Below, piece after piece: positions 35,624 through 38,584 of a DNA stretch of 64,000 nt. The first letter of the stretch is position 1, and every line of letters starts with the position of its first letter. The notes below the pieces were generated by a model. It had not been told where the DNA came from. It ran no database searches and saw only the letters and a list, made by a program, of their open reading frames with translations. This DNA comes from Streptomyces sp. NBC_00271 (GTDB lineage Bacteria; Actinomycetota; Actinomycetes; Streptomycetales; Streptomycetaceae): NCBI RefSeq assembly GCF_036178845.1, contig NZ_CP108070.1:4278001-4342000 (forward strand), in the 5' to 3' direction. Both the position numbers and the translations under genes were made by a program.

Positions 35624-36229
35624 TCAGTCGATTCGGCGGCGCAGTCCGCGCAGGATGAGGGTGACGACCGTCGAGAACTCGGCCTCGATGCCAGGCTGTT
35701 CCCACTCGTGGGCGTAAGCGGGGTCGTGGAAGCGGTTCGTGGCGTGGAAGACGGCGCGGGCCGTCGCGACGGAGTCGCCGTCCACGGTCATGAAGTCGCC
35801 CTCCATCACGCCGCGATGAATGATCTCCGAGAGCTGGTCGACCAGCTCGGCGACGTGCTCCTCGACCACCGCGCTCGCCTCGTCCAGCAGCACCGAGTAC
35901 GTGGCGAACAGCTCGGGATCGTCGCCCGCCTTGTGCCGCTTGGCGGTGAACAGCGTCGCCAGCCAGTGTTCGAGCACCTCAGGGGGTGGCGCGGACGACG
36001 GCCTGGCGATCTCCGCGAGTATCTGCGACGTACGGTCCAGCCAGCGCTTCGTGACCGCCTCCCGCAGCGCCGCCTTCGTACGGAAGTGACGGTAGACGCT
36101 GCCGTGGCTGACGCCGAGCGCGCGGGCCACGTCCACCACGGTGGCCTTCGCGGGGCCGTGGCGGCGCAGCGCCTCCTCGGTCGCCTCGAGGATGCGCTCG
36201 GCGGTCAGTGCTTCGCTGGTCGGTGCCAT
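35624..36229 (-). CDS. TetR-family transcriptional regulator
   Basis: 201 aa from the ATG at 36229. Helix-turn-helix at about 12-58 (AERILEATEEALRRHGPAKA, then LGVSHGSVYRHFRTKAALRE) with a TetR C-terminal domain of the type found in LfrR/YbiH-like regulators. It is 26 bp downstream of the aldo/keto reductase gene on the same strand, so the two are co-transcribed and the protein probably represses its own operon through the inverted GATGACAGAT repeats ahead of that gene. Confidence 0.93.
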   Translation of the reverse strand: MAPTSEALTAERILEATEEALRRHGPAKATVVDVARALGVSHGSVYRHFRTKAALREAVTKRWLDRTSQILAEIARPSSAPPPEVLEHWLATLFTAKRHKAGDDPELFATYSVLLDEASAVVEEHVAELVDQLSEIIHRGVMEGDFMTVDGDSVATARAVFHATNRFHDPAYAHEWEQPGIEAEFSTVVTLILRGLRRRID

Positions 36230-36255: not shown

Positions 36256-37260
36256 TCAGCGGTCGGTGCCGAGATGCGACATCTGCGCCGCCGGGTAGCG
36301 GTCGCCCGCGGCGGCGTCCGCCGGCACGGCCTGCTCGATCGCGGCGAGGTCGGCGTCGTCGAGCGTGACGTCCAGCGCGCCGAGCGCCTCCGTCAGCCGC
36401 TCCCGGGTCCGCGCGCCGACCAGCGGCACGATGTCCTCGCCCCGCGACAGCACCCACGCGATCGCGATCTGCGCCACGCTGACGCCCTTCTGCTCGGCGA
36501 TCTTCCGCAGCGCCTCGACGAGGGAGAGGTTGTGCTGGAGGTTCTCGCCCTGGAAGCGGGGGCTCATGGAGCGGAAGTCGGTCGGGGCCAGCTGCCGGTC
36601 GGCCGTGAAGTGGCCGGAGATCAGTCCGCGGGACAGCACGCCGTACGCGGTGATCCCGATGCCCAGCTCACGGGTGGTCGGCAGGACCTCGTCCTCGATG
36701 CCGCGCGAGATCAGCGAGTACTCGATCTGGAGGTCGGCGATGGGGGCGGTGGCGGCGGCGCGGCGGATGGTTTCGGCGCCGACCTCGCTCAGGCCGATGT
36801 GCCTGACGTGCCCCTTCTCCACGAGCTCGGCGATCGCGCCGACCGTCTCCTCGATCGGGACGTTCGGGTCGAGCCGCGCGATCCGGTACACGTCGATGTG
36901 ATCGACGCCCAGGCGCTGCAGCGAGTACGCAGCGAAGTTCCGCACCGCGGCGGGCCGGCCGTCGTATCCGGACCAGCCGCCGTCCGGGTCGCGCAGGGCG
37001 CCGAACTTGACGCTGGTCAGCGCCTGCGCGCGCAGGGCCGCCGGAGCCGCGCGCAGGGCCTCGCCGATCAGCATCTCGTTGTGGCCCATGGCGTAGAAGT
37101 CGCCGGTGTCGAGGAGCGTCACGCCTGCCTCGAGGGCGGCGTGGATGGTCGCGATGGACTCGGCCCGGTCCGCCTCGCCGTACAGCGCGGACATGCCCAT
37201 GCAGCCGAGGCCGAGGGCGGAGACCTGGGGGCCGGTGGTTCCGAGGGGGCGGGTTTGCAT
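36256..37260 (-). CDS. Aldo/keto reductase
   Basis: 334-aa NADPH-dependent (alpha/beta)8 oxidoreductase. MQTRPLGTTGPQVSALGLGC opens the barrel, the catalytic Asp/Tyr lie in LLDTGDFYAMGHNE (about 51-60), Lys in TSVKFGALRDP (about 86) and the His in HVRHIGLSEVG. It resembles the AKR13 group. The ATG at 37260 follows CAGGGAGTCCTC. First gene of a two-gene unit with a TetR regulator. Its promoter region holds the large inverted and heptad repeat complex shared with the divergent chitinase gene. Confidence 0.94.
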   Translation of the reverse strand: MQTRPLGTTGPQVSALGLGCMGMSALYGEADRAESIATIHAALEAGVTLLDTGDFYAMGHNEMLIGEALRAAPAALRAQALTSVKFGALRDPDGGWSGYDGRPAAVRNFAAYSLQRLGVDHIDVYRIARLDPNVPIEETVGAIAELVEKGHVRHIGLSEVGAETIRRAAATAPIADLQIEYSLISRGIEDEVLPTTRELGIGITAYGVLSRGLISGHFTADRQLAPTDFRSMSPRFQGENLQHNLSLVEALRKIAEQKGVSVAQIAIAWVLSRGEDIVPLVGARTRERLTEALGALDVTLDDADLAAIEQAVPADAAAGDRYPAAQMSHLGTDR

Positions 37261-37314
37261 GAGGACTCCCTGGTGTCCCTTGGAGGATTGGTGCCCTTTC
37301 ACGATGGCATGACA

Positions 37315-37340
37315 GATGACAGATTTCAATATCTGTCATC
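37315..37340. promoter_or_regulatory. Candidate operator: inverted GATGACAGAT repeat
   Basis: GATGACAGAT (37315-37324), spacer TTCAAT, ATCTGTCATC (37331-37340): perfect 10-bp arms, 55 bp upstream of the aldo/keto reductase start. A plausible site for the TetR protein encoded in that operon. Confidence 0.65.
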
Positions 37341-37438
37341 TGTTATCTGATATCTGTCATCCGATACCTGTCACCTGTCACCTGTCACCTGTCACCCGGC
37401 ATCTGTCAGCCGACATCCGTCACCCGCCACCTCCCACC
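37334..37438 (+). repeat. Fifteen-unit heptanucleotide array
   Basis: Gap-free 7-bp units: TGTCATC, TGTTATC, TGATATC, TGTCATC, CGATACC, four times TGTCACC (37369-37396), CGGCATC, TGTCAGC, CGACATC, CGTCACC, CGCCACC, TCCCACC. Consensus YGTCAYC. Two more heptads in the opposite orientation lie at 37311-37324. It fills the gap between the operator and the chitinase promoter. Confidence 0.9.
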
Positions 37439-37445
37439 CCACTTT

Positions 37446-37476
37446 GGTCCAGACCTATTGACGACAGGTCTGGACC
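37446..37476 (+). promoter_or_regulatory. Pair of DasR-like (dre) boxes in the chitinase promoter
   Basis: TGGTCCAGACCT at 37445-37456 and AGGTCTGGACC at 37466-37476 match the streptomycete chitinase promoter repeat and the DasR consensus ACTGGTCTAGACCACT. A -35-like TTGACG (37458-37463) lies between them. N-acetylglucosamine-linked control is established for such genes. Confidence 0.75.
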
Positions 37477-37531
37477 GCGGGCACTGTCATGCCTACGACA
37501 CCTCACCGCACCCCCCACCGGGAGGCCTCGC

Positions 37532-38584
37532 ATGATCCGTCGGAAGCTGCGCCTGTTCGTCCTCGCACTCACCGCAGCCGTCCTCGCCCCACTGTCGGTC
37601 GCCACCGCCCCCACCGCATCCGCCGCCGACACCTGCGCCGTGAAGTCCCGCCCGTCCGGGAAGGTTCTCCAGGGCTACTGGGAGAACTGGGACGGCTCTT
37701 CCAACGGAGTGCACCCGCCGTTCGGATGGACGCCGATCACCGACTCCCGTATCGCCGCGCACGGCTACAACGTGATCAACGCGGCGTTCCCGGTCATCCG
37801 CTCCGACGGCACGGCGCTGTGGGAGGACGGGATGGACACCGGTGTGAAGGTCGCGACGCCGGCGGAGATGTGCGCGGCCAAGGCGTCCGGGCAGACGATC
37901 CTGCTGTCGATCGGCGGGGCGGCGGCGGGCATCGACCTCAGTTCCTCCGCCGTCGCGGACAGGTTCGTCGCGACGATCGTGCCGATCCTGAAGAAGTACA
38001 ACTTCGACGGTATCGACATCGACATCGAGACGGGCCTGGTCGGCAGTGGCAGCATCGGCCAACTCTCCACGTCCCAGGCCAACCTGACCCGGATCATCGA
38101 CGGCGTGCTGTCGCAGATGCCGGCCAACTTCGGGCTGACCATGGCGCCGGAGACCGCGTACGTCACGGGCGGCAGCGTCACGTACGCCTCGATCTGGGGC
38201 GCGTATCTGCCGATCGTCAAGAAGTACGCGGACAACGGGCGCCTGTGGTGGCTGAACATGCAGTACTACAACGGCAGCATGTACGGATGCTCCGGCGACT
38301 CCTACTCCGCGGGCACCGTTCAGGGCTTCACCGCGCAGACCGACTGCCTGAACAAGGGGCTGGTCGTGCAGGGCACCACCATCAAGGTGCCCTATGACAA
38401 GCAGGTCCCGGGTCTGCCCGCCCAGTCGGGCGCCGGCGGCGGCTACATGTCACCGAGCCTGGTCTCCCAGGCGTGGCGGCACTACGGCACCGGCCTCAAG
38501 GGCCTGATGACCTGGTCGATCAACTGGGACGGCTCGAAGAACTGGACCTTCGGCGACAACGTCAAGGCGCTGCAGGGCCGTTGA
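37532..38584 (+). CDS. Secreted GH18 chitinase
   Basis: 350 aa. Signal peptide MIRRKLRLFVLALTAAVLAP, cleavage near ASA-ADTC. The mature enzyme is a bare GH18 barrel: KVLQGYWENWDG first strand, QTILLSIGGAAAG, and the catalytic motif FDGIDIDIETG (D-x-D-x-D-x-E, Glu near residue 173). It hydrolyses chitin by retaining, substrate-assisted catalysis. No carbohydrate-binding or fibronectin domain is present, unlike many streptomycete chitinases. ATG at 37532 follows GGGAGGCCTCGC. The two dre boxes predict repression by DasR. Confidence 0.95.
   Translation: MIRRKLRLFVLALTAAVLAPLSVATAPTASAADTCAVKSRPSGKVLQGYWENWDGSSNGVHPPFGWTPITDSRIAAHGYNVINAAFPVIRSDGTALWEDGMDTGVKVATPAEMCAAKASGQTILLSIGGAAAGIDLSSSAVADRFVATIVPILKKYNFDGIDIDIETGLVGSGSIGQLSTSQANLTRIIDGVLSQMPANFGLTMAPETAYVTGGSVTYASIWGAYLPIVKKYADNGRLWWLNMQYYNGSMYGCSGDSYSAGTVQGFTAQTDCLNKGLVVQGTTIKVPYDKQVPGLPAQSGAGGGYMSPSLVSQAWRHYGTGLKGLMTWSINWDGSKNWTFGDNVKALQGR

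Follow-up and report, generated by a model that had tools for sequence, protein, structure and literature searches.

The DNA between an aldo/keto reductase (AKR)-tetR operon and a chitinase gene probably holds a conserved TetR operator lying over the AKR promoter, together with a slippage array of heptanucleotides that grew from the operator's upstream arm as a by-product. The operator looks functional, and the array is most likely an ordinary, non-functional slippage array seeded at it. Here, the window refers to the whole stretch of 64,000 nucleotides that we analyzed, and positions are counted from its first letter.

The predicted TetR operator and promoter

The AKR gene (36256 to 37260, minus strand; Pfam Aldo_ket_red) is the upstream gene of the operon and is accompanied by a gene for a TetR-family regulator (35624 to 36229, minus strand; Pfam TetR_N and TetR_C_27), whose product reached the cut-off of no equivalog model in NCBIfam. 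Ahead of the operon lies a palindrome, TGACAGAT-TTCAAT-ATCTGTCA, at 37317 to 37338, which we predict to be the TetR operator on the basis of its conservation, its adjacency to AKR, and its co-occurrence with TetR. Conservation also points to a promoter at the operator: the operator spacer includes a predicted −35 box (minus strand TTGAAA, 37324 to 37329), and a predicted −10 box (CATCGT on the minus strand) follows at 37301 to 37306. Inside the spacer between these boxes is an outer left heptad, TGACAGA (37310 to 37316, minus strand), that mirrors the first heptads of the array. The two opposite heptads described in an earlier note on this DNA (GACAGATGACAGAT, 37311 to 37324) and their perfect inverted arms (GATGACAGAT at 37315 to 37324 and ATCTGTCATC at 37331 to 37340) are present. 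That note had treated this inverted head as part of the array, a view that is not supported, because the head corresponds to the predicted operator of AKR-tetR, which long predates the array and occurs far more widely.

We compared the operator region across 62 distinct loci, which are the 76 fetched loci minus three without AKR (L075, L252, and L254) and 11 duplicates. The operator core was exact in 51 loci, carried one mismatch in nine, and carried two mismatches in two. All 62 loci have the same A and T in a CAnnnT-type −10 box at a fixed 17 bp from TTGAAA.

When up to three mismatches were allowed, the operator pattern was found in 86 of 150 Streptomyces genomes, and its reversed control in none of the 150. 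AKR adjoins 28 of the 30 operator sites that were fetched, with a TetR match (tblastn) at 27 of those 28, and a chitinase lies within the fetched DNA at only 5/30; the site therefore belongs to the AKR-tetR operon. The two exceptions, L252 and L254, are both three-mismatch matches and have no AKR, TetR, or chitinase. A TetR ortholog (E ≤ 1e-30) was present in 85 of the 150 genomes. Cross-tabulation of ortholog and operator placed 84 genomes with both, 63 with neither, and three discordant: one with TetR only (G045) and two with the site only (G130 and G142, both three-mismatch matches). The lists for this table were transcribed by hand, and loci and genomes are related, so the counts are not independent and the Fisher p value of 1e-38 should not be read as if each genome were an independent event.

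The site also extends beyond the genus, with two or fewer mismatches in 3 of 15 other genomes of the order, all three from one genus of a second family. All three second-family sites precede AKR-tetR, with a spacer of GTCAAT or GTCAAC; by eye, the −35 box there would read TTGACA, and the dyad is without outer heptads. A looser pattern, with TGACAGAT and ATCTGTCA separated by 0 to 20 bases, matched 116 of 246 genomes, and its reversed control matched 64 of 246 (hand count). This reversed control, TAGACAGT and ACTGTCTA 0 to 20 bases apart, occurs mostly once per matching Streptomyces genome and is possibly another conserved operator.

Some operators of the TetR family overlap the promoter of their own operon and have dyad symmetry. 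The predicted site resembles them in its dyad symmetry and its conservation ahead of an operon that encodes a TetR protein, occurs where the regulator occurs, and lies over what is predicted to be the operon's promoter; it differs from them in its additions, the mirrored outer heptads and the array. Taken together, these observations strongly support the pairing of regulator and operator, and the TetR protein encoded at 35624 to 36229 most likely binds the core over the AKR-tetR −35 box and controls its own operon. Our literature searches, largely outside the subscription literature, brought up no description of the operator sequence that we recognized.

The bases that flank the core on both sides vary between species, yet across the 62 loci they covary as complements. 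Over positions 1 to 9, 310 of 558 arm pairs were complementary, compared with a mean of 242 when right arms were re-dealt among loci; none of 2,000 such shuffles was as high, under a null that leaves relatedness uncontrolled. The signal comes from positions 1 to 4 and 6 (≤8/2,000 each), with positions 5 and 7 weak and positions 8 and 9 showing none, and 19 of the 62 loci have zero complementarity beyond the core. Quasi-palindrome copying at a hairpin is a mechanism that produces mirrored sequence, and either this or a second TetR dimer could account for the covariation. Folded as single-stranded DNA, 37300 to 37440 gave a z score of −2.1, and 9 of 200 shuffles were equally stable, a result that does not discriminate operator function from hairpin function. 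A broader reading is that the operator itself grows: hairpin-templated copying would mirror the half-site heptad on both sides, slippage would multiply it on the permitted side, and the resulting lineage-specific ladder of half-sites would tune how far TetR is titrated or how well the two divergent promoters are insulated. We regard this as unlikely.

The heptad array and its chitinase flank

Read unit by unit, the array (37334 to 37438, plus strand) comprises 15 heptads in register and without gaps, 105 bp in all, of which the first overlaps the operator's right arm. Units 1 to 5 are TGTCATC, TGTTATC, TGATATC, TGTCATC, and CGATACC; units 6 to 9 are four consecutive, identical copies of TGTCACC; and units 10 to 15 are CGGCATC, TGTCAGC, CGACATC, CGTCACC, CGCCACC, and TCCCACC. 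Self-identity at lag 7 is 0.72 for 37326 to 37438, compared with a background mean of 0.28 (sd 0.05) over all 113-bp windows in the 64 kb; only nine overlapping 113-bp windows match this value, all of them at the array, which is the strongest 7-bp periodicity of the window. TRF reports the array as periods 7, 14, and 21. The array thus shows tandem 7-nucleotide units beyond chance, as a heptanucleotide simple sequence repeat does. The 15-unit, gap-free structure with its four copies of TGTCACC had been described in the note, and our reading agrees. We did not find the reported increase in divergence toward the chitinase: by-eye counts of mismatches to YGTCAYC run 0, 1, 2, 0, 2 in units 1 to 5, 0 in units 6 to 9, and 1, 1, 1, 0, 1, 2 in units 10 to 15, so they do not rise steadily, and the identical copies stand in the middle rather than at one end.

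Two other interpretations of the array were set aside. A frame from ATG 37316 is open across the entire array into the chitinase (37316 to 37531), through which automatic annotation may lengthen the chitinase by 72 residues; we took ATG 37532 as the chitinase start and discarded the coding reading. SARP boxes are heptamers that recur about every 11 bp with gaps between them. Such direct-repeat boxes were rejected for the array, since its lag-11 self-identity is 0.24, equal to background, and its units are gap-free. Heptameric repeats of SARP-LAL regulators are covered in the available text of PMC5930380.

Past the end of the array are the DasR-like boxes reported previously: GGTCCAGACC at 37446 to 37455 and AGGTCTGGACC at 37466 to 37476, with a possible −35 box of the chitinase (TTGACG, 37458 to 37463, plus strand) between them, all three kept in relatives. 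The GH18 chitinase gene (37532 to 38584, plus strand; Pfam Glyco_hydro_18) has its start, as read from the sequence, at ATG 37532 after GGGAGG at 37520 to 37525. Both boxes are similar to dre elements, for which the accessible part of the review PMC6097792 gives a consensus 16-mer of the form A(G/C)TGGTCTAGACCA(G/C)T; by eye, each is one base off the dre core GGTCTAGACC. The array heptads do not resemble dre.

Comparison with related genomes, which had been proposed as a check for copy-number change, revealed such change. Beyond the core, there are 14 heptads here and 10 in L050; L051 has 19, and L052 has 5, its count halting at a frame shift. The other 58 of the 62 loci range from 0 to 4. Five or more extra units are therefore found in 4 of 62 distinct loci, which form a single clade. 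On a tree of the AKR gene, a quick one with weak support on 23 of 59 inner branches, the state "5 or more" maps as one change and "3 or more" as five. L053 and L064, which branch beside the array clade, have three and four units. Alignment gaps measure 7 and 22 bp against L050; 7, 14, 35, and 14 bp plus single bases against L051; and 10, 3, and 2 bp, with no multiples of 7, against L052. Apart from the L052 gaps, length therefore differs between relatives mostly in unit steps, as in simple sequence repeats. On these comparisons, the array is young, local, and limited to one clade, and the operator core predates it. The earlier suggestion that the array expanded from the operator side is most likely right; the array adjoins the operator and differs in unit number between related species.

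In the array clade, 107, 78, 177, and 118 bp separate the operator from the first chitinase box. Among the 22 other loci measured, this distance is 29 to 61 bp in 21 and 80 bp in L054; the box was unrecognized in 3 of 29 loci. L054 does not belong to the array clade; between its operator and chitinase box lies a different repeat, of about 14 bp, which may have expanded independently at this position. These distances, the variation in unit number between close relatives (14, 10, and 19), and the position of the array next to both promoters would fit a length switch, in which slippage within a population would be frequent enough for the changing unit number to tune or toggle the promoter of AKR-tetR or of the chitinase. 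However, the units are imperfect, with no more than four identical in a row, which slows slippage, and no part of the array falls within either predicted promoter core. A length switch is, in our assessment, distinctly unlikely.

The note had also raised a multi-site operator, in which TetR or a partner would fill the run of half-sites and spread across both promoters. The right half-site ATCTGTCA is matched at ten array positions with two or fewer mismatches, and the covarying arms (310/558 versus a mean of 242) would fit a second dimer. However, the array half-sites point in one direction only (the best other place matches 10/16 over both halves), so the array contains no further full operator, and spreading of TetR dimers is unlikely because it has no second inverted pair of half-sites at the 6-bp spacing. 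The 58 loci with at most four extra units and the second-family dyad, which by eye has no outer heptads, also speak against this reading, which we consider very unlikely.

We favor instead a slippage array beside a conserved operator. TetR would bind TGACAGAT-TTCAAT-ATCTGTCA, covering the −35 box and regulating its own AKR-tetR operon. One heptad of the operator's upstream arm would have been duplicated, seeding the array, which would then have grown toward the chitinase in one clade, mostly by 7-bp slippage steps. Growth would be restricted to one side because the other arm forms the −35/−10 spacer, whose length is fixed, and array length would be free to change because the array is located between two promoters. 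The array would carry no regulatory code of its own, contributing at most a longer spacer between the divergent promoters and isolated half-sites.

Heptad arrays elsewhere

A search of the array's own genome for (YGTCAKC)x3 with up to three mismatches gave 131 matches, in which overlapping matches inside one array are counted repeatedly, compared with nine for a reversed control. We fetched 15 further regions, of which nine contained a 7-bp array at our set threshold and six did not. The nine arrays are dispersed and apparently intergenic by ORF reading, some of them flanked by converging genes, and inverted heads occur at several. AKR was absent from all 15 regions, and the TetR of the window from all those with an array; one array-less region gave a TetR match that was weak (37% identity over 57 residues). 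For six of the nine arrays, an ortholog was present among the fetched loci; in every case the lengths differ between intact flanks, and 9 of the 16 gaps of at least 4 bp are exact multiples of 7. Across 150 genomes, array presence was independent of operator presence (46/34/40/30, p = 1). Heptad arrays thus arise at many places in the genome, and the operator half-site is the likely seed of the one in the window. Since arrays of the same kind of heptad also arise without an operator, however, the operator need not have been that seed.

These arrays bear on a further alternative, that a distinct, dispersed heptad element bearing an inverted head inserted at the operator flank or took its place. 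In its favor are the 7-bp arrays, several with inverted heads, in 9 of 15 regions of the same genome, and similar heads at arrays of other Streptomyces (L148, L179, and L195). However, the arrays share no common boundary and carry no gene, orthologous arrays differ by gain or loss of units between intact flanks, L053 and L064 beside the array clade hold three and four units, and the operator core is older than the array. We judge such an element highly improbable. The heads in L148, L179, and L195 are operator-like (ACAGAT-NNTGAA-ATCTGTC), and the DNA fetched around them has no AKR match; they perhaps belong to related regulators or arose by chance within arrays.

A sample of the same genome, sixty 20-kb stretches (1.2 of 12.28 Mb), gave no clear dominance of period 7 among tandem repeats. 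It contained 58 tandem groups, three of period 7 and one of period 14; two of the three period-7 groups fall in a single, previously known array (L288), and other periods that are not multiples of 3 were equally common. Two arrays of other heptads were seen in the same genome: about 25 near-identical GCTGGCG units in L202 (3033 to 3250; about 3576050 to 3576230 in the genome), far purer than the window's array, and a CCGTTGC-like array in L210 (219 to 309; about 8602220 to 8602310) roughly 2.7 kb from a TGTCATC-type array. With one mismatch or none, (YGTCAKC)x3 matched 124 of 246 Streptomyces genomes and its reversed control 35 of 246 (hand count). The highest load among the 246 was in G233, with 85 heptad-triple and six forward palindrome matches. 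Across named genomes from many phyla, at least 118 stretches contain three copies of TGTCATC, a count with no control heptad beside it. The case for a special preference for TGTCATC was unconvincing, with seven matches in viral contigs compared with one, five, and four for heptads of the same letters. In contigs of Prevotella and other Bacteroidales, TGTCATC often stands in exactly three copies after AAC (L094, L098, L106, L146, L150, L152, L158, L176, L196, and others); AAC precedes the run in 25 of 29 loci picked by eye. Flanks and neighboring genes of these Bacteroidales loci are unrelated, save for one short match.

Relation to known repeats

The earlier note knew of no described system like this one, a statement that needs revision, as heptanucleotide arrays have been published in other bacteria (the available parts of PMC4679880, PMC2700814, and PMC4692102). 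As far as the accessible text of PMC4692102 and PMC4679880 goes, a 2007 survey found heptameric repeats to be over-represented, or the most abundant of the longer repeats, in many bacterial genomes. Xanthomonas and Nostoc have heptameric simple sequence repeats of the GGGAATC and GGGGA(C/T)T type which, like the array here, are imperfect 7-nucleotide tandem units, mostly intergenic, variable in length and sequence between close relatives, and in some cases inverted pairs; they are, however, G-rich and proposed to form quadruplexes (PMC4692102, in the text available). In the genome studied here, the unit resembles TGTCATC, and one of the arrays lies next to a conserved operator. Repeats of TAACTGA, known from Beggiatoaceae and some Cyanobacteria and Bacteroidetes, are likewise genome-dispersed, intergenic, direct heptamer repeats with indels mostly in 7-nucleotide steps between close strains (available sections of PMC4679880). 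In the Orange Guaymas genome, the same sections place them mostly just upstream of start codons and propose a translational role, a pattern of placement that we did not see in the genome with the array. The elements of Geobacter metallireducens, with four or five tandem heptanucleotides, are also dispersed but differ in their fixed unit number and consensus (PMC2700814, as far as available). For Streptomyces, literature searches largely outside the subscription literature yielded no description of such arrays that we recognized.

For this bacterial heptad array, the likely seed can thus be named: a conserved operator half-site beside a promoter, in a geometry that would permit growth in one direction only. 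The pairing of TetR and operator is directly testable, and the relatives with 0 to 19 extra units provide natural variants.
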